DNA from: Haliscomenobacter hydrossis DSM 1100
GTDB taxonomy: Bacteria; Bacteroidota; Bacteroidia; Chitinophagales; Saprospiraceae
Length of the DNA: 64,000 nt
Direction of reading: 5' to 3'
Assembly (NCBI RefSeq): GCF_000212735.1
Contig: NC_015510.1
Coordinates: 5,953,001-6,017,000, forward strand
The notes under the pieces are model-generated. The model ran no database searches. It saw only the letters and a program-made list of their open reading frames with translations, and was not told where the DNA came from. The translations under genes were made by a program, and so were the position numbers. Shown here piece by piece: positions 2 to 53,619 of this stretch. The number at the start of each line of letters is the position of its first letter. The first letter of the stretch is position 1.

Positions 2-1201
2 AACACGCCCAATGTAGCCAGCGTTAGAGAGGCCATCAATCAACTGACTGCCCAAGCCAATTTCAGCCAGGGGGTAGAAGTAGGGGAAACCAGGATAGAG
101 ACCGTTTATTCATCTGAAGATGTAGCCTTGGTTATGGACGTTCATGCGCGCAGTTTGATGGGAAGCATCGGCAGTTCAGTTTCGTATACCACCGATGCCA
201 ATAAGTTAACCCTTGTAAAGATCATTAGACAACGTTACTACAGCGTTGACGTAGTACCTCCTGCCATTTCTCAGGATTTTTTTGCCGATCCAAACACGGC
301 CATCTCACCAAATTGGACCTACATCAGTTCGGTTAAGTATGGTCGAATTGGGATTTTAGTGATGACTTTTGAATCAAAAAGCCAACAAATCGAAGCCAGT
401 TTAGAAACCAAACTGCGGGGATTAATTGGTAGTGTTTCTGGTTCTATTGACTCAGAAATCGCCAACAAATTCAAGAGCATCAATGTTCAAACCTTTCAGT
501 TTGGTGGCCCGCCCATGAATATTGCTGGAGGCTCGATGGCCAGTCTAGCCGCAGTTCAAGAGATTTTCCAGCGATTTGACAACTGGACAAAAAAGCCCGT
601 AAACAACCCTCAACCGATCGCGTATTCCCTGCGCTTTGTACAATATGAAAATGGTGGGCCAGCGATCGCTAGTTTACAATCAACCCTAAACTATAATGCA
701 CGCCGCTGTGTAGAATTCCGCCCAAAATTAGAAGTTACACTCAAAGAAATCAAGTGCATCAGAGCTGATGATGGCGATGGTGGATCGGGCGAAGACATCT
801 ACTGTATGTTGACCAGTAAAGCATTTACAGGCGATGGAGTTCAGCGGGTGAATGCCTTGTTCAACCAGCCGGAAGTAGTACTGAACCTTAAAGATTGTGC
901 CACCCGCTCGATCAACACGGGCGGATCTTATCTGGTGCCCAATGCTACACGCCTCTATGATATACCCAGTGATGATCGATACTTTAGGGTTACGATTGGT
1001 GGAGACATTGACGAAGATGACAACTGCGGCGTGACAAATACGGGCAGTGATGATGAATACAATGATGAGGGCGGGGTACGTACCCAAAGAACCATTGAAT
1101 ACAAAGACATCGGCACCAATTTAACCACGGTTGTTTTTGACCACAAAAGTGGTAATTCACACATTCAACAAGTGTGGACCCTGCGAAAAGTATACCAATA
1201 A
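2..1201 (+). CDS. Cholesterol-dependent-cytolysin-like pore-forming protein (5' truncated by window)
   Basis: The reading frame is open from base 2, so the true start lies outside the window; the in-frame TTG at 128 is internal. The visible part resembles domains 1-3 of thiol-activated cytolysins: a YYSVDV segment, then a YISSVKYGR motif equivalent to the cytolysin YVSSVAYGR strand, then FQFGGPP and a PIAYSLRFVQ segment close to the family's PISYTSVFLK. The last 150 or so residues are unlike classical domain 4: I see no Trp-rich undecapeptide, but a Cys- and Asp-rich tail. This matches the CDC-like (CDCL) proteins known mainly from Bacteroidota, which are thought to need proteolytic activation or a partner. 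A role in attacking other cells is inference. The fold assignment is fairly safe; membrane target and activity are unknown. A hairpin follows the stop and a putative protease gene lies downstream. Confidence 0.75.
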   Translation, partial: NTPNVASVREAINQLTAQANFSQGVEVGETRIETVYSSEDVALVMDVHARSLMGSIGSSVSYTTDANKLTLVKIIRQRYYSVDVVPPAISQDFFADPNTAISPNWTYISSVKYGRIGILVMTFESKSQQIEASLETKLRGLIGSVSGSIDSEIANKFKSINVQTFQFGGPPMNIAGGSMASLAAVQEIFQRFDNWTKKPVNNPQPIAYSLRFVQYENGGPAIASLQSTLNYNARRCVEFRPKLEVTLKEIKCIRADDGDGGSGEDIYCMLTSKAFTGDGVQRVNALFNQPEVVLNLKDCATRSINTGGSYLVPNATRLYDIPSDDRYFRVTIGGDIDEDDNCGVTNTGSDDEYNDEGGVRTQRTIEYKDIGTNLTTVVFDHKSGNSHIQQVWTLRKVYQ

Positions 1202-1219
1202 ACGGCGCAGCAGCAGCGA

Positions 1220-1254
1220 GCTATGCAACTGATCAAAACGATCAGGTGCATAGC
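1220..1254 (+). repeat. Hairpin after cytolysin-like gene, copy 1 of a shared element
   Basis: Arms gctatgca...tgatc and gatca...tgcatagc flank a short A-rich loop with one internal mismatch. The same core recurs at 2795-2826. There is no U-run, so this is either a weak terminator or a 3' stability element. Confidence 0.6.
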
Positions 1255-1292
1255 CAATTTAAAATTATTTGCTAGCAAAAAATAACGACGTC

Positions 1293-2789
1293 ATGAACTC
1301 AATTTTAAATAAATCAATATGTTTATTGTTGTTTTTTCATAGTTATTTGCAACTTTGCGCCCAAAATCCCTCAACCATCAATGGTAGTATTACCATGTCA
1401 GAGGAAACCTTGCAAGCCCTGAGTAACCAACATGGGCCAAATCTGTTTAGAACGGGTATGGGTTTCGAGGTTTGGAATGTGGTCTATCGAGATGTTTTAA
1501 GCAATGAGGGCGTACCAATCACCCGTGTCTACCTCAATCAAAAAGTACCCGGTGTAGTGATAACGCCTACAATTGGACTAGCACAAGGGAGCAAAAACAT
1601 TACTTTCACCGTTGCGGGCATTCCGCCACAAGGTGATTTTATCCTGCTGTATTATTTCAATACCTATCCTCCTCAATTTAAAGTTTTTAAGGCAGGCAGT
1701 AGGCTCAATGACGGCAGCAATCGTAAAGGTTTGCGTTATGCGACCAATGCGCCCTTGAAAATTGGACGAGGAAAGAAATATGGGGCAATCTCTATCTTGC
1801 CAGCTCGACTAAATCCAAGCTATACAATGGCCATACAAGCCAGTACGACAGATTCCGACGCTTGGGGTCTTGGTGACATTTTTGATTTCTTTGAAGATCT
1901 TGCTCAAACAGTTTGGGAAGGGGGTAAAACACTAGCAGGTGTGTTTGTTGATGCCACAGGCACAATCATTGTGCAGGCTTATGGCATTGGGCAGGCACTT
2001 TTTACCGACGACGGAGTGATCATCCCACGTTATCGGGAAATTACAGCGGCAGAATACAATTGGGCCAATACTAAAATTTTTAATGGGAATTTGCCCCCAA
2101 AAGACAAAATCATCATCACCAACTTGCTGGGGTTCCAGAAGCGGGCATTCGTATGGCCTACTGGTCATGGCAAAATATTAATGAACCTGGGGAAACAAGG
2201 CTACGATAATCCACAAAATTTACGACTTGATAAAGGCTACATCCAAGGCCAGGTATTCGCCCATGAATTGACCCATGTATGGCAGATCTACCATACTGCC
2301 GACATCAGTTTTACCCTCAATGGCTTAAAGACTCAAGTATGTGATTTACTGGGGAACAATGCATATCAGGTCGATTGTGGCAAATCATGGGGGCAATACA
2401 ACATTGAACAACAAGCCACGCTGTGCGAAAAATGCTTCCGTGCTCGTGAAGGCGGCACTGCGAACACCTGTCAGGAGACTTACGTTGAAGCCAATATTCG
2501 CAAAGGGGTGAATTTTCCAAACCCTAGATCAGCTGCCTGCCAAAATTTAATCAATCAAATAGCCGCTAAAACTACAGCGCTAAACAACCGGGCAGATGCA
2601 ATATTAGCCGAGCGCAAAAGAAACGGCTTACCTGTAGAGTCACAAATGATCATGAGCCCCACTACTGGTAAACCCATGAGGGTGGAGTATGTACCTCCTG
2701 CTATTCTAAACGCCGACGCACAATATGTTCAAATTAAAAATGAGCTAGCTGCGCTTAACCAACAGAAAGCAGCAACCAATTGCGAATAA
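1293..2789 (+). CDS. Secreted protein with gluzincin-like HExxH motif
   Basis: I chose ATG at 1293 over the upstream TTG at 1269 because it gives a clean signal peptide: a short polar start, a LLLFF hydrophobic core and a CAQ cleavage site. No family is recognised for the N-terminal half. In the C-terminal half the sequence AHELTHVWQ carries HExxH with the H-V-W-Q context seen in secreted zinc-protease-like domains, and a downstream NIEQQA supplies a plausible third zinc-ligand glutamate. Several cysteines follow. It lies 91 bases after a CDC-like cytolysin gene on the same strand and both end in the same hairpin, so co-expression is possible. A role as the protease that matures the cytolysin is speculation. 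It could also be a catalytically inactive zinc-binding domain or a toxin/anchor domain. Confidence 0.6.
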   Translation: MNSILNKSICLLLFFHSYLQLCAQNPSTINGSITMSEETLQALSNQHGPNLFRTGMGFEVWNVVYRDVLSNEGVPITRVYLNQKVPGVVITPTIGLAQGSKNITFTVAGIPPQGDFILLYYFNTYPPQFKVFKAGSRLNDGSNRKGLRYATNAPLKIGRGKKYGAISILPARLNPSYTMAIQASTTDSDAWGLGDIFDFFEDLAQTVWEGGKTLAGVFVDATGTIIVQAYGIGQALFTDDGVIIPRYREITAAEYNWANTKIFNGNLPPKDKIIITNLLGFQKRAFVWPTGHGKILMNLGKQGYDNPQNLRLDKGYIQGQVFAHELTHVWQIYHTADISFTLNGLKTQVCDLLGNNAYQVDCGKSWGQYNIEQQATLCEKCFRAREGGTANTCQETYVEANIRKGVNFPNPRSAACQNLINQIAAKTTALNNRADAILAERKRNGLPVESQMIMSPTTGKPMRVEYVPPAILNADAQYVQIKNELAALNQQKAATNCE

Positions 2790-2794
2790 AAGGA

Positions 2795-2826
2795 TATGCA
2801 CTTGATCAAAAACGATCAGGTGCATA
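2795..2826 (+). repeat. Hairpin after HExxH gene, copy 2 of a shared element
   Basis: Arms tatgcac-ttgatc and gatcag-gtgcata pair with a single G-U wobble around an AAAAAC loop. The core is nearly identical to the hairpin at 1220-1254. It sits between a plus-strand gene and the convergent minus-strand kinase operon, so it may end transcripts from either side. Confidence 0.6.
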
Positions 2827-2838
2827 ACTTCAATCATA

Positions 2839-4863
2839 TCATGCAAGACCAGGCACCACGATGTCGTACCCTTTTCCCTCCGGACAAGCATTCAGTTTTC
2901 CTCCATAACTTTCGATGAAGGTTTTGATCAAAGAAATGTCCCAATAGGGTTTGGAATAAGTTAGGTTTTGTGTCAGTCTTGCGACAGCATCAATTTCCTG
3001 TACATCAGCAAGCCGGATGGTGACCCCTTCCTCGGTTCTCCAGGCGCTTAAACTAATTGGAAATGCTAGTTGATCAGGGCGATGCACCATGATTAAAAAC
3101 AAGTTGCGCAGGGCCATTTTGAGCATGGTCAGATCGCCATACAAGTACAAATCTTCAGGAATGTGATAAATGATGGGTGCCAATGAACCATCGTTCAGGA
3201 GGCGTAAGTTCTTGTCCAGCTCATCGGTCAGGGATTTGAGTTGAAATTCCTGGCGCAAGGGTTGGTAGTATTGCATTTGTACCCGTGCGGTGAACAGTAA
3301 ATCCTCCATCAAGGTAATGGTACGCACGGTTTGTTGGTGCAATTGGACTAAAATAACTGATTCCTGGGATTGCGTAAAGGACTTCGAGCTTTGGTTTAAA
3401 TTGGCCAAAACACTTTGAATGCTTTGCAGGGGTGCCCTCAAATCGCGCGCAATAGCGGCAAAGAGTTGATCTTTGATTTGATTGAGGTCCAGCAGTAGTT
3501 TTCTTTGGGTGTCGATGTCTATCCCTTTCTGGGTGAGTATTTTATTAGCGGCCTGGCGTTGTCGATAAAGCGAATAGATGCCCAGCCCGATGAGGAAGAC
3601 CAACCCCACCGTAATCATCATGATGTACTTCCACCATTTTACTTTGTTCAGTCGACCTGCATAATACTGATCCAGGTTTTGTTGGGCTTCCAGCACAGAG
3701 AATGCTTCCAGTCGATTGGTCGATTCGGCTTTGGTGTCGTCTGAAAAAATGCTGTCGCTGATCATGCGGGCTTGTTTCAGGGCCTCGAGGCTGGGCTGGT
3801 ACTGTTTGAGCTTTTTTAGCACCGCAGAATAGGTGCGCAACACCAATGGTTGCAGGGTCTGAATTCCCTTATTTTGGGCAATGGACAAGGCATATTTGAC
3901 GTAATGGTGGGCCGAGTCGAGCTGTCCCAAATGTAAAAAAATGCGCGCCATATTTCGACAGGCTATGGTTTGTACCTGCGCATCTTCATTCAACATACTG
4001 AGGTGATGTGCCCTGCGTGCAAAAGGAAGACCAAGTTTGGGGCGATTGTCGAGCAGATAAAGATCACTCAGATTGGCACAGGCACTGGCGATGAAATAGT
4101 TCAAACCAAAAGGTTCGGTTTCCTGTAGTGCACCTTGTATATAATTGATCGCTATATCATTCTTTTTTTTGTGGCGATATACGGTACCCAGGTTGCTCAA
4201 GGTCATCGCTTTTACGGTAGGAGAAACAATCGTTTTTAGCTCTTTAACATTCAGTTTTAACAGATATTCTGCTTTTTCAAATTGTTGGAGTGAAACATAA
4301 GATTCCGCTAGATTGGCGCGGGTATGGCATTTGAGGTTCAATCCGGTGGGGCTTTTTTTGCATAAGGCTATGGCGCGGTAAGCATATTCCATGGAGGTTG
4401 GATAATCTCCTTTCAATGCAAAAACATTGGCCATATTTGAAAAATTCAGGGCCATGATCAAGGGTTGTTCTTCGATGTCGATCAAGTCACTGGATTTGAG
4501 GTAGTAATAAAGGGCCTTATCCAGGTCAGCTTCATCAAAATACTCGTTGCCTTTGTTTCCAAAGGCTCGGGACATCAACACCTTATCGTTTAAGTTTTGC
4601 GCTAGATTTAGCGCTTGATTATTGTAAGCATAGGCCTCGGCAAAGTTGGAGTACATGAGCTGGTCGTGTAAATCAAGCAAAACCCGCGCTTTTTCTGACC
4701 TGATCTCGGTTTGTGGCAACCTTTTTTTTAATGCTGCAAGTTTTTGCGGGTTGTAGGGGGTGAGTTGGGCGTACGCAAGCAGGCCTCCGAACAAGAGTAC
4801 CAGAGTACTGATTATTGAAGCTAAAGGGATCCGACTTGTGTGAAAAAATCTCAATGTTTTCAC
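2839..4863 (-). CDS. TPR histidine-kinase-like protein lacking all catalytic motifs (pseudokinase)
   Basis: The order is an N-terminal hydrophobic segment (about 13-32), tetratricopeptide-like helices (about 55-390), one membrane helix (about 412-432) and a dimerisation/ATPase region (about 455-674). It is a paralogue of the upstream gene with the same architecture and length. The dimerisation motif reads IARDLRAPL where the paralogue has ISHDLRSPL, so the phospho-acceptor histidine is Arg473. The ATPase domain has lost the N-box asparagines, the DxGxG loop and the GxG lid. It should therefore neither bind ATP nor autophosphorylate in the standard way. Its start lies 14 bases after the upstream kinase stop, implying one transcript. 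It may act as a regulatory partner of that kinase (inference). Lengths are intact, so this is not an ordinary decaying gene. Confidence 0.8.
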   Translation of the reverse strand: MKTLRFFHTSRIPLASIISTLVLLFGGLLAYAQLTPYNPQKLAALKKRLPQTEIRSEKARVLLDLHDQLMYSNFAEAYAYNNQALNLAQNLNDKVLMSRAFGNKGNEYFDEADLDKALYYYLKSSDLIDIEEQPLIMALNFSNMANVFALKGDYPTSMEYAYRAIALCKKSPTGLNLKCHTRANLAESYVSLQQFEKAEYLLKLNVKELKTIVSPTVKAMTLSNLGTVYRHKKKNDIAINYIQGALQETEPFGLNYFIASACANLSDLYLLDNRPKLGLPFARRAHHLSMLNEDAQVQTIACRNMARIFLHLGQLDSAHHYVKYALSIAQNKGIQTLQPLVLRTYSAVLKKLKQYQPSLEALKQARMISDSIFSDDTKAESTNRLEAFSVLEAQQNLDQYYAGRLNKVKWWKYIMMITVGLVFLIGLGIYSLYRQRQAANKILTQKGIDIDTQRKLLLDLNQIKDQLFAAIARDLRAPLQSIQSVLANLNQSSKSFTQSQESVILVQLHQQTVRTITLMEDLLFTARVQMQYYQPLRQEFQLKSLTDELDKNLRLLNDGSLAPIIYHIPEDLYLYGDLTMLKMALRNLFLIMVHRPDQLAFPISLSAWRTEEGVTIRLADVQEIDAVARLTQNLTYSKPYWDISLIKTFIESYGGKLNACPEGKGYDIVVPGLA

Positions 4864-4877
4864 TGCGATATGCTGTT

Positions 4878-6911
4878 CTAAGTTTGTTTAAGGGGTAAAA
4901 TGATGGTAAAGGTACAGCCTTGATTGGTTGTACACTCTCCCAAGAGTTTTCCGCCTTGATTTTCAATAAATTGCTTTACCAGAGAAAGACCCATTCCCGA
5001 GCCCACTTCCCCTTTGGTGCCAAAGCGTGACAATTGGCCTTTGAGGGCTTTATCGAGTTGTTCAGGGTTCATTCCGATGCCATAATCTTGGATTTGGATG
5101 GCACATTCATGGTGTTCCTGATGGGCGCGGATTTCTACGGCTTGTCCGGCATGTGAAAATTTCACCGCATTGGCCAGTATGTTGCGCAGGGCCATCCTGA
5201 TCATTCCTGGATCACTGTACAAGGTAAAATCGGGATGGATTTTATTGTTAATGAGCACTGTTTTTTCCAAAAAAATAAGTTGAACGGCTTCACTGAGTTC
5301 GGCTACAATCGGTTGGAGTTTGAACTCTTTTTTGCTGGGTTGATAGCTGTTCATTTGTATTTTGGCCCAGTACAAGAGGTTTTCGAGCATTACGCTGGTT
5401 TTGGCCGTTTGTTGGTGCAAGAGTTCTAGCCAGCGCCTTCGGTCAGAGGGGGCAAGATCCGGTTCATTGAGGGTGTCTAGTACGGCCTGGATGGCCCAAA
5501 GCGGAGAACGCAAATCATGAGAAATTACGGCAAAGAGCTGATCTTTGACTTGACTGAGTTGCTCCAGCTGGTTCTTTTGGTCTTCAATTTGGGCATTTTG
5601 CTGTTTGAGCTGACGGTTGGCTTTTTGGCGGATTTGAATTTTAAACAAAAGAAAAAGGCTGATTAAAGCGGCCAGAAATACGGTCAATAACATGGCGTAA
5701 CGAATAAAACGTTCTCTTCGGAATTTATCTTCAAAAACCTCTTCTAATTCCCTTACCGCCCGGCGAATGGTCATTTCCTGCCGCAAACGTTCCGCTTTTA
5801 ATTTTTGTGCACCACTGGCAATGCTGTCTTCCAGCGCTTGCGCTTTTTCCAGGGCTTGCAATGCCTCGAAGGGTTTATTTTGTTGGGTTAAAATATTGGC
5901 CCGCTGAACCCAAATGTCTCGCTCGGTGGTATCCCGACCTTTGAAAAGTGCTCCATCTAAGGCCATCGTATTGTACCACAATGCTGAATCCAGTTTATTT
6001 TCGCTAAAAAAAGCTTGGGCGATGAGGCAATTACCGCAGTTTACCGCATTGGAGTCCCGGAGTTGGAGGGCAGTTTCTTTTTTCTTTACGCCATATATTT
6101 TAGCCTTTTCGATGCTGTCCAGGAGCAAACTCACCCGGCTGAGGTCACCCAAAATATCCATTTTCAGGTTGTCAAAATGGTTTGTGGTGGCAATTGTATA
6201 GGCACTTTTTAAGGCAATCAGGGCAGCGCGGTATTTTTTTTGCGCTTCTTGATTTTGTCCGGTGGCGTATAGAATGTCGCACAAATCGAAGGGGAGGTTG
6301 GCTTTTTTGGCCAAAGCTTCCCCTTTCATCAGCGCTTCCGAGGCCAGAAAATACTTTTTCATTTCCAAGTTGCAGCGGCCAATATGGGTATATAATTCAA
6401 CTCGAAGGGGGATGTTTGGTAAAGTCTGTTTCTGCAATGTATTGATTCCCAAATGGTAATATTCTAGTGCTTTTTGGTGATTCCACTGGCGTTGAAAAAT
6501 GTTGCCCAAGTCGAGGTATACGTTGCTTTGATGGGTATACTTGCGGGCTTTTTGAAAATATTCTGCTGCGGTGATGAGGCTTTTTAAAGCATATTCTATA
6601 TTGAGGCTGCGGTCGGCAATTTTGCCCTTTAGCTGGTAATATCTTCCCCAGCTAATGTCACGATTCAACTGCTTTACCAAGGGATTTACTTCAGCAAGGT
6701 GAATTTTAGCCCGGCTGAGATCGGAGTCAAGTTCTTTTTCAATTAAAGCCCAATAAGCATTGATTTTTTGTTCGATAGACAAGGTCGAGGATGGTGTAAT
6801 CGATCCTGATTGGGCCAATGACTCAACGGGTCTTATGCCCCACATACTCAAGCAGCCCATTAGCATCAATACCATATTTTTGCCGGCATAAATGCGCCGT
6901 CGTTTCTCCAC
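4878..6911 (-). CDS. TPR-containing membrane sensor histidine kinase
   Basis: A signal peptide ending near SLAQ is followed by TPR-like helical repeats (about 45-360), a coiled region, a membrane helix (about 404-425) and a cytoplasmic kinase core. All motifs are present: H-box ISHDLRSPL with His465, N-box RNILANAVKFS (Asn577/Asn581), DYGIGM at 609-614 and GSGMGL at 637-642. This is the Bacteroidota type of periplasmic-TPR histidine kinase, which autophosphorylates and signals to a response regulator; no response regulator is encoded nearby. It is the first gene of a two-gene minus-strand unit with a motif-less paralogue 14 bases downstream. The signal sensed is unknown. The kinase call is firm. 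Confidence 0.9.
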   Translation of the reverse strand: MEKRRRIYAGKNMVLMLMGCLSMWGIRPVESLAQSGSITPSSTLSIEQKINAYWALIEKELDSDLSRAKIHLAEVNPLVKQLNRDISWGRYYQLKGKIADRSLNIEYALKSLITAAEYFQKARKYTHQSNVYLDLGNIFQRQWNHQKALEYYHLGINTLQKQTLPNIPLRVELYTHIGRCNLEMKKYFLASEALMKGEALAKKANLPFDLCDILYATGQNQEAQKKYRAALIALKSAYTIATTNHFDNLKMDILGDLSRVSLLLDSIEKAKIYGVKKKETALQLRDSNAVNCGNCLIAQAFFSENKLDSALWYNTMALDGALFKGRDTTERDIWVQRANILTQQNKPFEALQALEKAQALEDSIASGAQKLKAERLRQEMTIRRAVRELEEVFEDKFRRERFIRYAMLLTVFLAALISLFLLFKIQIRQKANRQLKQQNAQIEDQKNQLEQLSQVKDQLFAVISHDLRSPLWAIQAVLDTLNEPDLAPSDRRRWLELLHQQTAKTSVMLENLLYWAKIQMNSYQPSKKEFKLQPIVAELSEAVQLIFLEKTVLINNKIHPDFTLYSDPGMIRMALRNILANAVKFSHAGQAVEIRAHQEHHECAIQIQDYGIGMNPEQLDKALKGQLSRFGTKGEVGSGMGLSLVKQFIENQGGKLLGECTTNQGCTFTIILPLKQT

Positions 6912-7271
6912 GTCAATAAAATTTTGATGTTCACAGTAATGAGGGGAAAACTTGCAAAAAAGGATGCAGCAAGCAGCAGAAAGTCTTCAGTAAAAAATAA
7001 GGTACATTGGTAAAAGATTTCCCTTAGTTTAGAAAATAAGGGAAGCTTACAATCATTTGTACCGTACTTTAGTGCTGTCAAAAAAGAGTTTCTTTTCATA
7101 GTAAAGCAATCCTCAAAAGATATCGTGCGAATCTAAAGTATTTGCATCAAAAATTCAAGTATTACAGTGTTCTATTGTTGGCGCCCTGCTTTCGGGGCGT
7201 TTTTTTTTATGTTTTATAAACAATATACAAACGATTATTTTCGCGAATTTTGAAAAAAAGTGGCCAATCTT
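6912..7271. other. Divergent intergenic region with an unexplained plus-strand terminator
   Basis: This 360-base gap separates the minus-strand kinase operon from the plus-strand DUF3667 gene and must hold both promoters; I found no exact TAnnTTTG box. It contains an 8-bp hairpin (ttccctta/taagggaa, 7019-7044) and a terminator-like stem with a T-run at 7182-7209. No convincing protein is encoded. Confidence 0.4.
7182..7209 (+). terminator. Orphan rho-independent terminator
   Basis: The stem cgccc/gggcg around a tgctttc loop is followed directly by about ten T residues on the plus strand. No plus-strand gene lies upstream; the neighbouring gene is transcribed away from it. It could end a small RNA or act as a leader attenuator for the gene starting at 7272. 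Confidence 0.6.
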
Positions 7272-8324
7272 ATGGAAGAAATAGATGCAACGATAAAGAA
7301 ATGTTACAACTGTGCAGAAGCTTTACCTCAACATGCAAAATATTGCTTGCGCTGTGGACAAAAACACAGCAAGGGTTTGGTGACCTTGCCTCAACTTTTC
7401 GCCGAATTGGTTGACGCTGTATTCAACATTGATTCCAAATTATACCGCACTTTGTTGCATATTTTTATCCCGGGCAAGTTGACACAAGAATATTTTAAGG
7501 GTCGGCAAGTGCGTTACGTAAGTCCACTGCGTTTTTTCTTTTTTTGGGGGGTGGTCGCGTTTGCATTGATGGCCAGTTTAGGGGGAAATCTGATTAATCT
7601 TCAGGAAAATATGGATTCCAGCTCTAGGCTTGGTAAGGCTTACGCTGAAAAATTCAACGTGACTTTTGATTCTGTGGCCAGTGTATTAAACCAGGAAATT
7701 AGGATCAATAAAAGTGCTAGTATTTTGTTGGATTCTTTGCGGCATCGTTTGCAGGTGGGCAAGAAAGATTCAAGCCAACTGGGCTACTTTTTACTCAAAG
7801 ATGGGGCTTTTTCGCCTCAATCGCTTGTCCTTTCCAATGCCGATGTATTTACCCTTGATGCGGCTAGCATTTGCAACAAATACAAGGTGGAGGGTAGTCT
7901 ATCACGCTTTCAGGTACAGCAGGGGGTCAAATTGATTCGAGACCCTGAAGGCTACTCCAAATTCGTACTGGGCAGTTTTACCTGGATGCTGCTCGTGATG
8001 TTGTTTGCCGTGGCACTAGCCTTGAAATTCATCTACATTCGTCGGAAAAGGTACTATGTCGAGCACCTGATTTTTTCCATGCATTGCCATGCTTTTACCC
8101 TCATGCTGATCGCCATTGGATTGATTTTCAAGGTAAAAGAAGGCGCTTTTTGGGGCGCTATTTCATTGGCAGTTGGACTGTACTTGTGGTTGGCGATGAA
8201 GCGATTTTATGGCCAGCGCTGGGGTAAAACGTCCCTGAAATTTTTCCTGGCAACTTCGGCCTACTTGTTCATTTTTGTCTTTGCGCTGGGCATCACTTCC
8301 CTCATTGGCATCGCATTGTTTTGA
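7272..8324 (+). CDS. DUF3667 family membrane protein with N-terminal zinc ribbon
   Basis: I prefer ATG at 7272 to the GTG at 7260; it yields a 350-residue protein. Near the N-terminus two CxxC pairs (CYNC and CLRC) form a rubredoxin-like zinc ribbon. Then comes the DUF3667 signature: LYRTL, PGKLTQEYFKG and a YVSPLRFFFFWG segment leading into the first membrane helix. A soluble middle region (about 110-230) is followed by four hydrophobic stretches in the last 130 residues. The family is common in Bacteroidota and has no established function. It is followed 36 bases later by gatB, which seems to have its own promoter. Confidence 0.75.
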   Translation: MEEIDATIKKCYNCAEALPQHAKYCLRCGQKHSKGLVTLPQLFAELVDAVFNIDSKLYRTLLHIFIPGKLTQEYFKGRQVRYVSPLRFFFFWGVVAFALMASLGGNLINLQENMDSSSRLGKAYAEKFNVTFDSVASVLNQEIRINKSASILLDSLRHRLQVGKKDSSQLGYFLLKDGAFSPQSLVLSNADVFTLDAASICNKYKVEGSLSRFQVQQGVKLIRDPEGYSKFVLGSFTWMLLVMLFAVALALKFIYIRRKRYYVEHLIFSMHCHAFTLMLIAIGLIFKVKEGAFWGAISLAVGLYLWLAMKRFYGQRWGKTSLKFFLATSAYLFIFVFALGITSLIGIALF

Positions 8325-8332
8325 GGTTTTGC

Positions 8333-8340
8333 TATATTTG
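8333..8340 (+). promoter_or_regulatory. Predicted -7 element for gatB
   Basis: TATATTTG is an exact match to the Bacteroidota TAnnTTTG element and ends 20 bases before the gatB ATG. I see no well-spaced -33 TTG. Confidence 0.4.
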
Positions 8341-8360
8341 CGCCCGAAAACCAACACACT

Positions 8361-9818
8361 ATGGCCAATACCGCCTATGAAACCATCATCGGCTTGGAAG
8401 TACACGTTCAATTGGCAACCGCCAGCAAAGCATTTTGTGCTGACGATGCCAGCTTTGGGGGTGAGCCCAATACGCAGGTTAGTTCCATTTCACTGGGACA
8501 TCCGGGGACTTTGCCCAAAGCCAATGGTCGGCAAATTGAGTTTGCCACACGGCTTGGCCTGGCTTTAGGCTGTCACATCAACGCGACCAATACCTTTGAC
8601 CGCAAAAATTATTTTTACGCGGATCTGCCCAAAGGTTATCAAATTACCCAGGACAAGCAGCCGATTTGTGTTGGTGGAGAATTACCCATCAAGTTGGGCA
8701 ATTCCTGGAAAACCATTCGGATTCACCACATCCACATGGAGGAAGACGCGGGTAAATCCATTCATACCATGTCGCCTCGTCACTCCTTCATCGATTTGAA
8801 CCGTGCCGGGGTACCACTTGTGGAAATTGTGACCGAGCCGGATTTGCGTTCAGGTGAAGAGGTAGATGCGTTCATGACGGCCATGCGGCAGTTGGTGCGG
8901 TATCTGGAAGTTTCAGATGGCAATATGGAACAAGGTTCATTGCGCTGTGATGTAAACATCTCGATCCGGGAGCAAGGGGCCACCATGTTGAACGACCGCT
9001 GTGAGGTGAAAAACGTCAATTCGATGAAATTTGCCCGACAGGCCATCGATTATGAGGTGCAACGGCAAATTGGATTGGTGGAGTCGGGCGGAAAAATCAA
9101 ACAACAAACCCTCAATTTTGATCCCAATACCGGCGTAACTTCCCCCTTGCGGGAAAAAGAAGACGCCCATGATTACCGCTATTTTCCGGAACCTGATCTG
9201 CCGCCCATCGTTTTATCCCATGCGTATATTGAAGCCGTAAAAAATGGACTACCAGCGCTGCCACAGGCCATGTACACGCACTTGACTACCGAGTATCAGC
9301 TATCCGATTACGATGCTTCCATTTTGATGGAGGAAAAAAATACTGGCGTGTTTTACCTCAGTTTGGTACAACACACCAAAAATTATAAATCCGCGGCCAA
9401 TTTGGTCATCAACCGCATTTTGCCCTGGTGTCAGGAACAACGCCAGTCGCTGAGCAACTTCCCATTGGATGCCCAACAATTGGCGGCCTTGATCCAACTG
9501 ATTGAGGAGGGTAAAATCAGCAATACTGCGGCTTACCAAAACCTATTTCCGGCCATGCTGGCCAATCCTCAGCAGGCTCCAATGGCCCTGGCCGAATCGC
9601 TCAATTTGCTGCAAAATTCAGATGGTGATTTTTTGCAAAAAATTGCCGAAGAAATTTTGGCTCAATTTCCCGACAAGGTAAAAGAATACCAAAAAGGGAA
9701 AAAAGGCCTGATTGGCTTTTTTATGGGGGAATTGATGAAGCGCTCTAAAGGCAAAGCGGATCCGAAGGTGGCAACGGGAATTTTGGAGGGGATTCTGACG
9801 GGTACTGAAAAAAAATAA
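8361..9818 (+). CDS. gatB: Aspartyl/glutamyl-tRNA amidotransferase subunit B
   Basis: The protein (485 residues, usual length) begins with the GatB signature YETIIGLEVHVQL and contains SLGHPG, YFYADLPKGYQI, RCDVNIS, CEVKNVNS and DYRYFPEPDLPP, the conserved blocks of the catalytic core, then the helical and YqeY-like C-terminal domains ending in an EGILTG-type tail. With GatA and GatC it converts misacylated Glu-tRNA(Gln) or Asp-tRNA(Asn) to the amidated forms. gatA and gatC are not in the window, as is common when the subunits are dispersed. A very long terminator hairpin follows. Confidence 0.97.
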   Translation: MANTAYETIIGLEVHVQLATASKAFCADDASFGGEPNTQVSSISLGHPGTLPKANGRQIEFATRLGLALGCHINATNTFDRKNYFYADLPKGYQITQDKQPICVGGELPIKLGNSWKTIRIHHIHMEEDAGKSIHTMSPRHSFIDLNRAGVPLVEIVTEPDLRSGEEVDAFMTAMRQLVRYLEVSDGNMEQGSLRCDVNISIREQGATMLNDRCEVKNVNSMKFARQAIDYEVQRQIGLVESGGKIKQQTLNFDPNTGVTSPLREKEDAHDYRYFPEPDLPPIVLSHAYIEAVKNGLPALPQAMYTHLTTEYQLSDYDASILMEEKNTGVFYLSLVQHTKNYKSAANLVINRILPWCQEQRQSLSNFPLDAQQLAALIQLIEEGKISNTAAYQNLFPAMLANPQQAPMALAESLNLLQNSDGDFLQKIAEEILAQFPDKVKEYQKGKKGLIGFFMGELMKRSKGKADPKVATGILEGILTGTEKK

Positions 9819-50840: not shown

Positions 50841-51086
50841 ATGCTTAGTCAAATTAGCGCTTTTGATGAAATGGCCAACCTTATTGCTTCTGGAATAGAT
50901 CCAGAACGGCTCATTGCTTACGAAATTCCTGAACAGTTGATAGCTCGTTATCAATTTTTAGTGAATAAAGAAAAAAATGATGAGGTTAGTGCATCTGAAA
51001 AAAGTGAGTTGGACAGCCTATTGATGATCAATCACGTAATTAGTATGGCCAAGCTAATGGCCATGAAAAAGTTGGCTGCGGCATGA
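50841..51086 (+). CDS. Small protein paired with HNH nuclease gene
   Basis: This 81-residue, probably all-helical protein has no recognised domain: MLSQISAFDEMANLIASG, a basic/acidic middle and an Ala/Met-rich end. Its stop overlaps the start of the HNH gene by 4 bases (ATGA), so the two are translated together. Similar small genes often precede this type of HNH gene in my experience of Bacteroidota and cyanobacterial genomes, so an immunity or cofactor role is possible but unproven. Confidence 0.6.
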   Translation: MLSQISAFDEMANLIASGIDPERLIAYEIPEQLIARYQFLVNKEKNDEVSASEKSELDSLLMINHVISMAKLMAMKKLAAA

Positions 51087-51487
51087 GTTATATTGCGGCC
51101 TCCTTGCGCCTAATGGTAGCACATCGTGCTCTTTTTCGATGTGAATACTGCAAAATTCCAGATTTAGGTTTTGGAATCCCTTTTCAAGTCGATCACATTA
51201 GGGCCATTAAACATGGTGGATTGACCATTTTGTCAAATTTGGCTTACTGCTGTCCTGATTGTAATCGATATAAAGGGTCTGATTTGGGTTCTTGCCTTGA
51301 AGATGAAACAGTCTTGATTCGTTTTTTTAATCCGCGAACCGATCATTGGGACGGGCATTTTGGAGTAGTTGATGGCGTTATTCAGGGTAAAACTACCCAT
51401 GGCGAGGTCACAGTTGGTATTTTTCAGTTTAATTCCCCAGAAAGGGTTATGTATAGAAAAGAATTAATCATTAATGAATTGTATTGA
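51083..51487 (+). CDS. HNH endonuclease
   Basis: The 134-residue protein carries a compact HNH motif: CEYC (zinc pair 1), FQVDHIRAIKHGG with the catalytic D-H, NLAYCCPDCNRYKG with the structural Asn and the second Cys pair. It has no phage packaging or restriction genes nearby. It is cytosolic and probably acts on DNA; the target is unknown. It is coupled to the small gene upstream and followed 69 bases later by the caspase-like fusion gene. Confidence 0.85.
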   Translation: MSYIAASLRLMVAHRALFRCEYCKIPDLGFGIPFQVDHIRAIKHGGLTILSNLAYCCPDCNRYKGSDLGSCLEDETVLIRFFNPRTDHWDGHFGVVDGVIQGKTTHGEVTVGIFQFNSPERVMYRKELIINELY

Positions 51488-51556: not shown

Positions 51557-53440
51557 ATGGATCGTGACCTGGTACGCCGAGATCAAGTTGGTAAATCTTC
51601 TACTGCTCCCCGAGGCAAAAACTACCTCCTGGCCATCGCCATCAATGACTATCAGCATTGCAGCAAACTGAGCAATGCCGTTTTGGACGTAGAAGCTTTC
51701 ATCGAGGTGATGACCACTCGGTATCATTTTGAAACAGCCCACATCACTTTAATCAAAGATACCCAGGCCACCAAGCGGCGCATTGAAGGTGCCTTTGACC
51801 GCCTGATTGATTTGGTCACTCCACAAGATAACCTCATTGTCTACTTCAGTGGCCACGGGCGGTATCACCAGCGCCGAGGGGGCTTTTGGATTCCAGTCGA
51901 AGCCGGTAAAGGGGATGAGCATTGGCCCGATTACCTGTCCAATGGTTTGATCAAAGATTACCTCAGCAAAATCAAAAGCTTCCACACCTTCCTCATCGCC
52001 GATTCCTGTTTTTCGGGCACGCTGTTCATCGACAAAAGTAAGGAAAAATTCTCGGGCGACCGCCGCGATACCGAACCCAGCCGCTGGGGCTTGACCTCGG
52101 GCAAAAAGGAAATCGTCAGCGACGGCCAGCCTGGCCAGCATAGCCCTTTTGCCATTGCCCTGCTGGATGTGCTGCACAAAGCGGATCAGCCCATCGGGGT
52201 CATGCGCATTTGCGACATGGTATTAGAGAAAGTAGCCGCCAACGCCCAACAAACCCCGATGGGGTCACCTTTGCTGGTGCCTGGGCATCAGGGTGGGCAA
52301 ATGGTGTTGTATTTTCGGGAAGATGAGGAAGCAATCTGGGCGGCGGCTCAGGCTGCACATACACTTCATGCTTATACGGCGTATTATGAGCAGTATCCCC
52401 GGGGTAAATACCGCAAAATTGCGCTGGAGAAAATTGACGAACTGGAAGAAAAAGGCGATTGGGATAAAGTACGGAAAAACCGCCTGGCCGATTTGCTCCG
52501 CTACCTCGATGAAAACCCACGCAGCCCCTTTGCCCCGGAAGCACAACGCCTGGCCGATGCCCTGAAAGCGGGCATTCCTACTTCGCGGAATGAACCTGAG
52601 CCAGCAACAGCCAAACCAGCATTGATCGTACCAACACCTAAAATCGAAATTCCTGTCCCCATCATCCCCGAGCACATGGTGCTGCTCAAAGGCGGGACCT
52701 TTGAAATGGGCGACGTGATGGGGGATAAGGAATTCGGCAATGAAAAAGTGCATACGGTTACGGTGAGTGATTTTTTGATCGCCAAAACCGAACTCACGTT
52801 TGAAGAATACGACCGCTTTTGTGAAGCTACCAGGCGTGACAAACCCAAAGACGAAGGATGGGGCAGAGGCAAACGCCCGGTGATCAACGTCAATTGGTTC
52901 GATGCAGTCGAGTATTGCAATTGGTGCAGCCAGCAAGAGGGACTTCAGCAAGTCTATCGGATCAACAAGACAGAAGTTGATGCCGATTGGAACGCCAATG
53001 GCTACCGTTTACCCACCGAAGCAGAGTGGGAATACGCGGCGAGAGCAGGCGGTAAAAAAGTACGCTTTGGGAATGGGAAGGACATTGCCGATCCCAAAGA
53101 GATCAATTTTAATGGATCAGCATCATCTAAAAAGTCCTATTCGGTAGTAGGGGCATACCGCGAAAAAACGGTACCCGTGGGTAGTCTCAATAGCCCCAAT
53201 GCCTTGGGTTTACATGACATGAGTGGCAATGTATGGGAATGGTGCTGGGATTGGTACACTGAAAAGTATTACAGCAATAGTCCAGCAAAAGACCCGTATG
53301 GACCTATTGGTGGTATATTTCGTGTGTTGCGCGGCGGTTCTTGGAACTACGATCCGATTCTCTGTCGGACTTCCTACCGCTTCAGGATCTTTCCTGGTTA
53401 CCGTGTCGACAGTATTGGGTTTCGCTTAGCCAAGCACTAA
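51557..53440 (+). CDS. Caspase-like peptidase fused to formylglycine-generating-enzyme-like domain
   Basis: Residues about 20-220 are a caspase/metacaspase (C14) domain: LLAIAINDYQ, the His in YFSGHGRYH (His100) and the nucleophile in IADSCFSGT (Cys151). A helical linker (about 230-370) with a KYRKIALEKIDELEE stretch follows. Residues about 375-627 are an FGE-sulfatase (SUMF1-like) domain: GGTFEMGD, RLPTEAEWEYAARAG, LHDMSGNVWEWCWDWY and the end RVLRGGSW to IGFRLA. Such C-type-lectin-like modules often serve as ligand-binding rather than enzymatic domains. The end of the gene matches the pattern of a diversity-generating retroelement variable region. A plausible role is a recognition-triggered protease, for example in defence or cell death (inference). 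Confidence 0.88.
   Translation: MDRDLVRRDQVGKSSTAPRGKNYLLAIAINDYQHCSKLSNAVLDVEAFIEVMTTRYHFETAHITLIKDTQATKRRIEGAFDRLIDLVTPQDNLIVYFSGHGRYHQRRGGFWIPVEAGKGDEHWPDYLSNGLIKDYLSKIKSFHTFLIADSCFSGTLFIDKSKEKFSGDRRDTEPSRWGLTSGKKEIVSDGQPGQHSPFAIALLDVLHKADQPIGVMRICDMVLEKVAANAQQTPMGSPLLVPGHQGGQMVLYFREDEEAIWAAAQAAHTLHAYTAYYEQYPRGKYRKIALEKIDELEEKGDWDKVRKNRLADLLRYLDENPRSPFAPEAQRLADALKAGIPTSRNEPEPATAKPALIVPTPKIEIPVPIIPEHMVLLKGGTFEMGDVMGDKEFGNEKVHTVTVSDFLIAKTELTFEEYDRFCEATRRDKPKDEGWGRGKRPVINVNWFDAVEYCNWCSQQEGLQQVYRINKTEVDADWNANGYRLPTEAEWEYAARAGGKKVRFGNGKDIADPKEINFNGSASSKKSYSVVGAYREKTVPVGSLNSPNALGLHDMSGNVWEWCWDWYTEKYYSNSPAKDPYGPIGGIFRVLRGGSWNYDPILCRTSYRFRIFPGYRVDSIGFRLAKH
53321..53425 (+). repeat. Candidate diversity-generating retroelement variable region
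   Basis: The 3' end of the caspase-FGE gene reads RVLRGGSW, then 13 candidate variable codons mixed with fixed Pro, Cys-Arg, Arg and Gly codons, then IGFRLA. The candidate codons (aac, tac, gat, att, ctc, tac, ttc, atc, ttt, tac, gtc, gac, agt) all end in C or T, as expected if they derive from AAC/AAT codons of a template by adenine mutagenesis. No template copy or reverse transcriptase is in the window. Confidence 0.5.
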
Positions 53441-53619
53441 CCCTTTATCACTTTTACCCTTTTACCCTTTAACTGTCGTGAAGGCTGTGGTGTTCGTCGG
53501 CGCGAAGCGCCAAATTTTTTTTGAACACGCTCTGTTGTAAGCCAAATGCCATTGTTATAATGAGCCAATACTTGCACCAACTTCTCAAAAACCTTAAATT
53601 GCACCAAAATCCATACCTC

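Follow-up and report, generated by a model that had tools for sequence, protein, structure and literature searches.

Remote targets of the caspase type and broken diversity-generating retroelements (DGRs) are both already known. Among the DGRs of cyanobacteria, remote variable proteins have been described that include orthocaspase-CLec proteins; according to the available text of that work, they combine a caspase-like N-terminus with a C-terminal C-type-lectin variable region (VR), have dispersed paralogues encoded far from the reverse transcriptase (RT), and were recognised by their resemblance to a template or DGR target of their own genome (PMC7517822). In Thiohalocapsa PB-PSB1, the loci designated DGR 3 and DGR 7 are reported to be degraded, with RT or template lost; their targets, putative conflict-system proteins, have outlasted this loss, and intact variants coexist in the population (PMC10907252). 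That sensor/effector proteins of conflict systems serve as DGR targets has been put forward in published proposals (PMC10907252, PMC7159879). A Haliscomenobacter DGR is mentioned in PMC3521204, and 11 paralogous conflict-system proteins of another type have been reported from Haliscomenobacter hydrossis (PMC8195603). In published surveys, as far as their available text describes, targets are assigned on the basis of resemblance to a template or a DGR target of the same genome, so that targets whose template has been lost can escape them.

Here we describe a gene end of H. hydrossis DSM 1100 that appears to be of this kind. The DNA analysed, referred to below as the window, is a stretch of 64,000 nucleotides (G000:C1:5953001-6017000, G000 being the H. 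hydrossis genome), and the genome that was searched comprises 8,771,651 bases in four contigs, the smaller ones of 164,019, 143,757 and 92,189 bases. A gene in the window that encodes a caspase-like domain and an FGE (C-type-lectin) domain ends in 38 codons that very probably represent a genuine DGR VR, orphaned as a fossil by the loss of its RT and template, and not a current remote target. In contrast to the cyanobacterial proteins, it belongs to a Bacteroidota host and has its template in a congener only; compared with the Thiohalocapsa loci, it is represented by one strain, with the template surviving in the congener. Among the matches listed in a literature search that reached little of the subscription literature, no publication on template-less variable regions of H. 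hydrossis was found.

The caspase-FGE gene and its variable region

The product fuses a caspase domain to a sensor domain of the variable type (PF00656 and PF03781; Table 1). The caspase domain contains the motifs GHG and SCFSG, starting at residues 99 and 150, which we take to carry the catalytic His and Cys. The VR is C-terminal and lies within the C-type-lectin/FGE fold, for which the nearest PDB chain by sequence is 2y3c; with a profile of the paralogues, the best PDB match of the FGE domain is this same chain, Treponema denticola variable protein 1 (TvpA; E 3.6e-63), which has 294 residues; the comparison covers the FGE-like part. TvpA is described as having the C-type-lectin fold and a DGR origin (PMC7159879). 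Directly upstream of the caspase-FGE gene lies an HNH endonuclease gene (51083-51487) and directly downstream a Uma2 gene (PF05685; 53521-54222), beyond which are rpsL-like, rpsG-like and fusA-like ORFs, named by eye.

Table 1. Coordinates of the features of the caspase-FGE gene and its 3' flank, in window positions; G199 is a genome of the same genus
Feature	Position	Strand	Basis
Caspase-like/FGE (C-type lectin) gene, putative DGR target gene	51557..53440	+	ORF of 627 aa; Pfam PF00656 and PF03781; PADLOC caspase model
Peptidase_C14 (caspase) domain	51629..52258	+	Pfam, residues 25-234, E 5e-13
FGE-sulfatase/C-type-lectin domain	52670..53434	+	Pfam PF03781, residues 372-626, E 1.1e-57
Putative variable region (VR), 38 codons, 13 at template AAY positions	53321..53434	+	Ungapped match to the G199 template over 37 codons
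3' end of VR/template (TR) homology (IMH-like position)	53414..53434	+	ATT GGG TTT CGC TTA GCC AAG vs G199 TR ATT GGG TTT CGG TTA GCC AGG
Pyrimidine-rich tract CCCTTT..TTTTACCCTTTTACCCTTT past the stop codon	53441..53470	+	Common to the live G199 target
Small inverted repeat GGCGC-GAA-GCGCC, candidate DGR target hairpin	53499..53511	+	Same in the live G199 target
T run, end of homology to the G199 DGR cassette	53515..53522	+	Sequence comparison, alignment

The layout that the original prediction had described, RVLRGGSW followed by a patchy stretch and IGFR, is in frame with the ORF at 53321-53440, where it continues as IGFRLAKH up to the stop codon, and the 13 codons that it had singled out as former AAC or AAT codons read as written, all 13 ending in C or T. 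The accompanying chance figure of about 1 in 8,000 is loose: 330 of the 588 codons of the gene body end in a pyrimidine, which gives 0.56^13 or about 1 in 1,800, and the sites had been picked by eye. When the test is conditioned on the encoded amino acids, the codon endings of the window VR alone are not significant (z 0.5); the codon pattern becomes decisive once relatives are added.

The resident DGR of the genome

A search of the genome for RTs (RVT_1) gave 17 matches and a search for FGE domains 56, and the two coincide at the locus C1:5453000-5465000 (L017), where a DGR occupies C1:5457000-5460000. This resident DGR comprises an nSTAND1-FGE target of 958 aa, an HRDC ORF and an Avd that scores 112 bits with NF033474 (cut-off 80). 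Its RT, at C1:5459061, has the motifs IGNLTSQ and YMDD, and the template follows it at a distance of about 30 bases. Template and adjacent VR, the latter at C1:5457703-5457814, differ at 20 of 34 adenines and at one of 79 other sites. The element is complete, with RT, Avd, template and cognate target, and lies about 0.55 Mb from the window VR. A second DGR RT was sought among the RVT_1 places, of which nine of the 17 were translated and read, the classes of the other RTs being judged by eye; within the nine, only C1:5459061 fits, combining the IGNLTSQ motif with an Avd and a template. Nine of the 17 matches have near-equal scores and frames of 389-486 aa and seem, from the one that was read, to be copies of one group-II-like RT.

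The resident DGR resembles the window locus in belonging to the same genome and in having an FGE/C-type-lectin target, an adenine-directed template and a C-terminal VR of equal length, but no RT or template lies near the window VR, and this VR and the resident template, which align over 38 codons without a gap, are mismatched at 24 of 79 non-adenine sites, the third codon position being affected in 17 cases. Three of the 24 mismatches fall in the last six codons of the window VR, near the place at which cDNA synthesis would begin. At the 13 AAY codons of the resident template, the window VR ends in C or T in 11, the exceptions being TTG (codon 3) and AGG (codon 22). The resident template was therefore rejected as the writer of the window VR, given these 24 mismatches against the one in its own VR. 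A second template was not found in the genome with the window VR, a degenerate pattern (at most two mismatches) or the congener template as query, by pattern or by BLAST. A search of a plasmid collection, in which the records of the H. hydrossis genome are possibly absent, gave no match. The suggested genome-wide search thus did recover a DGR RT, an Avd and a template, and no template that matches the window VR; the proposal of a remote target written by a DGR of the same genome is not borne out, and differences beyond template adenines, which had been named as evidence against it, are what the resident template displays.

A fitting template in a congener

A generic template pattern, not derived from the variable codons of the window, was run over 298 genomes of the family and occurred at 28 places in 21 of them, H. 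hydrossis included; a DGR-RT match was also present at 24 of the 28 loci. The best fit to the window VR among these loci is the template of G199, a Saprospiraceae MAG of the same genus, located on its contig C2 (L162, JAIYAV010000360.1); the next best differs at 18 of 77 non-adenine sites. Over 37 codons aligned without gaps, the G199 template and the window VR differ at 19 of 32 adenines and 7 of 79 non-adenines (Fisher p 7e-8), or at 8 of 81 non-adenines when codon 38 is included (114 nt). The differences are thus not strictly confined to template adenines, although six of the seven exceptions are third codon positions. AAC or AAT codons of this template are codons 9, 10, 11, 13, 14, 19, 21, 23, 24, 27, 29, 30 and 31, which are exactly the 13 positions that had been named from the codon imprint alone; such a reading could therefore find orphaned VRs elsewhere. 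At these codons the window VR is NNY in 13 of 13, and 11 of them have the third base of the template. The codons that fail when compared with the resident template, TTG (codon 3) and AGG (codon 22), read the same in the G199 template, and two silent adenines of the latter, in the CCA codons 12 and 25, likewise differ in the window VR. In a scan of 228 loci with 2,197,776 ungapped positions, the G199 template was the best fit after the window itself, and the next template-like match, from an Aquimarina MAG, differs at 15 of 73 non-adenine sites.

The G199 cassette consists of the template, an Avd (91 bits), an RT (a frame of 396 aa) and an FGE target of 1395 aa, and its template and VR differ at 17 of 32 adenines and at none of the 79 other sites; by these sequence features the template is a real one, part of what reads as a complete DGR with a live target. 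Of the residues encoded at the 13 template codons, two are common to the window VR and the G199 VR. Agreement of framework codons with G199 is modestly higher in the VR (15 of 19) than in the gene body (68 of 130; p 0.046), and another count gives 20 of 24 against 69 of 128 (p 0.007). A second member of the family, G014, encodes a homologue with Peptidase_C14 and FGE domains, 40% identical to the window protein, beside an RT and a template that differs from its VR at 12 of 31 adenines and none of 80 non-adenines. This homologue being a live target, caspase-FGE proteins are diversified in the family; the DGR in question occupies positions 3-3282 of the locus L106 (G014:C45).

The 3' flank

Homology to the G199 target continues past the stop codon, with 92.7% identity over the 110 nt of 53413-53522 (the VR end and 82 noncoding bases), as compared with 68 of 130 agreeing codons at conserved residues upstream in the domain. 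The order of elements is common to both loci, namely a CTTTTACCC-type tract, the GGCGC-GAA-GCGCC repeat and a T run. After the T run, the RT start codon follows in G199 and unrelated sequence in the window; by eye, seven of the eight bases there resemble the G199 RT start, and tblastn, which found no RT remnant beside the window gene, is empty at this place.

The window hairpin has 5 bp and a loop of 3 nt and folds no better than shuffled sequences (z -1.0, with 29 of 200 shuffles at least as stable), and the phage DGR hairpins reported in PMC3240598 are larger, with stems of 7-10 bp and 4-nt GRNA loops; in BPP-1, according to the same source, the inverted repeat after the VR is required for efficient homing. 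A similar pyrimidine tract follows five of six other VRs inspected (L142, L145, L149, L150 and L153, not L151), of which L142, L150 and L153 are A-only VRs, and GAA-loop hairpins can be read after the VRs of L142 and L150.

Several loci carry what resemble remains of an RT. L174 (G199:C156) has an FGE target with the same flank, followed by a truncated RT that matches only about 40 codons past the start; shorter relics resembling an RT start are seemingly present in L077/L171 and L169, and L165/L173 has the flank with such a relic about 140 bases after the VR, these being read by eye. We infer that these loci display the kind of decay that the window locus may have undergone. At about 2980-3300 of L165 (G000:C1:6796500-6801500), the closest full-length caspase-FGE paralogue (69%) has about 140 bases between VR and hairpin flank, and the relic resembling an RT start lies beyond the flank.

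Codon imprint in FGE paralogues

From the 56 FGE matches, 33 gene ends and the template fitted a C-terminal expression. Six ends (L064, L065, L089, L092, L094 and L096) were set aside as controls, a choice that was not blind, as it was made after the mismatch counts and the pyrimidine counts of L089 and L092 had been seen, and 27 genes, the window gene included, were pooled. L068 was dropped as a duplicate of a gene in L025; the ends of L090 and L091 and the duplicated end of L025 exceed 38 codons and were pooled by alignment columns.

At the 13 AAY columns of the resident template, 317 of 351 codons of the pooled genes end in C or T and 11 of 351 encode E, K, Q, M or W, compared with 611 and 255 of 1082 in 42 high-entropy columns outside the VR of the same domains. 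For residues that allow a choice of ending, C or T was used in 127 of 150 cases at the template-AAY columns against 88 expected (z 7.1), and the corresponding z was 1.1 for the remaining columns of the VR, 0.6 for the 42 control columns and -0.5 for the six control FGE genes. Six further VR-like ends that the expression had missed gave 67 pyrimidine endings of 78 and two E/K/Q/M/W codons; over all 39 counted ends, with none set aside, the figures are 431 of 506 and 27 of 506. An end at C3:122098, in no pooled count, has 13 of 13. Outside the counts are also L079 and L085, which look VR-like, C1:929421, and about ten ends that are not VR-like or were unmatched by the expressions.

Among the 24 VRs of standard length, 20 have at least 11 of 13 pyrimidine endings, and L024_3673, L066, L067 and L073 have 8-10. 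L073, the closest full-length paralogue of the window gene, is a weak case, with nine such endings and three E/K/Q/M/W codons at the columns of the resident template and 11 of 13 endings at those of the G199 template. The window gene and L073 are 69% identical over the domain and agree in 19 of 25 framework residues, but have only one of the 13 template-AAY residues in common; L078 and L083, 88% identical with 22 of 25 framework residues, likewise have one of 13, and the control pair L064/L065 (67%) has kept eight. In other genomes, 13 of 18 homologous ends score 11-13 of 13 and five score 7-9; of these five, three are of the type KV.RGGSWKD and four have 3-4 E/K/Q/M/W codons.

Origin of the variable region and alternative explanations

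The adenine-enriched differences from the congener template, the common target-site flank and the imprint in the paralogues strongly support the prediction that the VR was written by a DGR. A DGR reverse transcriptase that is mutagenic at adenines would have copied a template RNA with AAC or AAT at the 13 codons, and its cDNA product would have replaced the 3' end of the gene, altering the C-type-lectin face and keeping the framework; the first two bases of the 13 codons would thus have been scrambled, with the pyrimidine third base and the framework codons left. The writer would have belonged to the lineage of the complete DGR on G199 contig C2, and its RT and template would since have been lost from H. 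hydrossis; both the past homing and the loss are what we infer. As the genome has no matching template, homing into the window gene is visible only as a trace, and since no template of the G199 lineage was found and no such RT recognised, the gene would now be frozen even though its target site is kept. The caspase-FGE protein thus appears to be a sensor that formerly evolved and has since become frozen, whose variable C-type-lectin face is probably paired with the caspase effector and may serve in sensing or defence; by analogy, the lectin face could sense an invader and trigger the protease.

Continued rewriting of the gene in trans, by the resident DGR at C1:5459061 or from a template that was not recognised, is very unlikely. 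A complete DGR is present on the same chromosome, with a template that aligns to the window VR without a gap, and the literature describes distal targets in another species at distances exceeding 370 kb from the RT (PMC3521204), as well as trans targets (PMC10907252); the non-adenine mismatches to the resident template, however, far exceed those of its own VR, three of them stand close to the presumed start of cDNA synthesis, and neither pattern nor BLAST revealed a second template. Still less credible is an ordinary FGE paralogue under diversifying selection, in which no retroelement took part and the pyrimidine endings merely reflect the residues favoured on the face. FGE domains do vary here in general, the residue-conditioned test on the window VR alone gives z 0.5, and in four paralogues, L073 among them, pyrimidine endings number only 8-10 of 13. 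Such selection does not account for a bias among the 27 genes that is concentrated at the template-AAY columns and nearly absent from the other VR and control columns, nor for the adenine enrichment relative to the G199 template, nor for the high scores of 13 of the 18 ends in other genomes, the other five scoring 7-9.

A further explanation, improbable though it deserves weight, is that ordinary recombination brought the VR and its flank into the gene from a DGR target that had been diversified beforehand; homing into this gene itself would then never have taken place. Resemblance to G199 is indeed greater in the framework codons of the VR and in the 3' flank than in the gene body, and bodies and VRs of different lineages are combined among the paralogues. 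However, the flank would also be retained if selection acted on a functional target site, and the window and G199 VRs agree in only two of the 13 template-codon residues, so that the donor would have to be another, unseen VR. An orphaned VR, written in place by a DGR since lost, thus remains the preferred reading.

Template dialects and a possible archive of lost templates

The 27 FGE genes as a group carry the imprint in several template dialects, and one template was found; when grouped by framework codons at 25% distance, the 24 VRs and the template fall into 12 sets. Seven non-adenine departures from the resident template, including one that the resident VR has as well, are common to the chromosomal L076 and to a single FGE repeat of a plasmid gene; they point to a putative second template, not found in the genome. 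It is about an even bet that the genome as a whole is an archive of lost DGR templates, in which over two dozen sensor ends of the FGE type, distributed over the chromosome and two plasmids, were written in several dialects and a single template survives. A DGR would then be a transient sculptor, duplicating, diversifying the gene of a sensor-effector protein and falling into decay; the frozen repertoire left behind, linked to caspase, STAND and other effectors, would be recognisable from the codon imprint alone. Frozen sets of formerly hypermutated sensors, here with caspase-like effectors, may exist in bacteria that form filaments or aggregates, and DGR turnover and sensor specificity become testable questions.

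Four distant chromosomal paralogues, L072, L078, L082 and L083, have a VR dialect and a 3' flank in common, and the search recovered no template corresponding to them. In L025 (G000:C1:5911000-5921000), an FGE VR-like end at 5196-5357 on the minus strand has an apparent tandem duplication of 16 codons with two ARVANR cores; the copies have mostly different residues at the template positions, and their framework third bases differ too. A plasmid ORF of 2083 aa in L026 (G000:C2:22001-42000; about 3371-9619, minus strand) encodes four tandem FGE domains, each with a VR-like end, one of them of another template dialect than the other three. Another plasmid VR-like end, in L024 (G000:C3; about 8099-8210, minus strand), has 13 of 13 pyrimidine endings together with 13 non-adenine differences from the resident template and a change of GGSW to GSSR.
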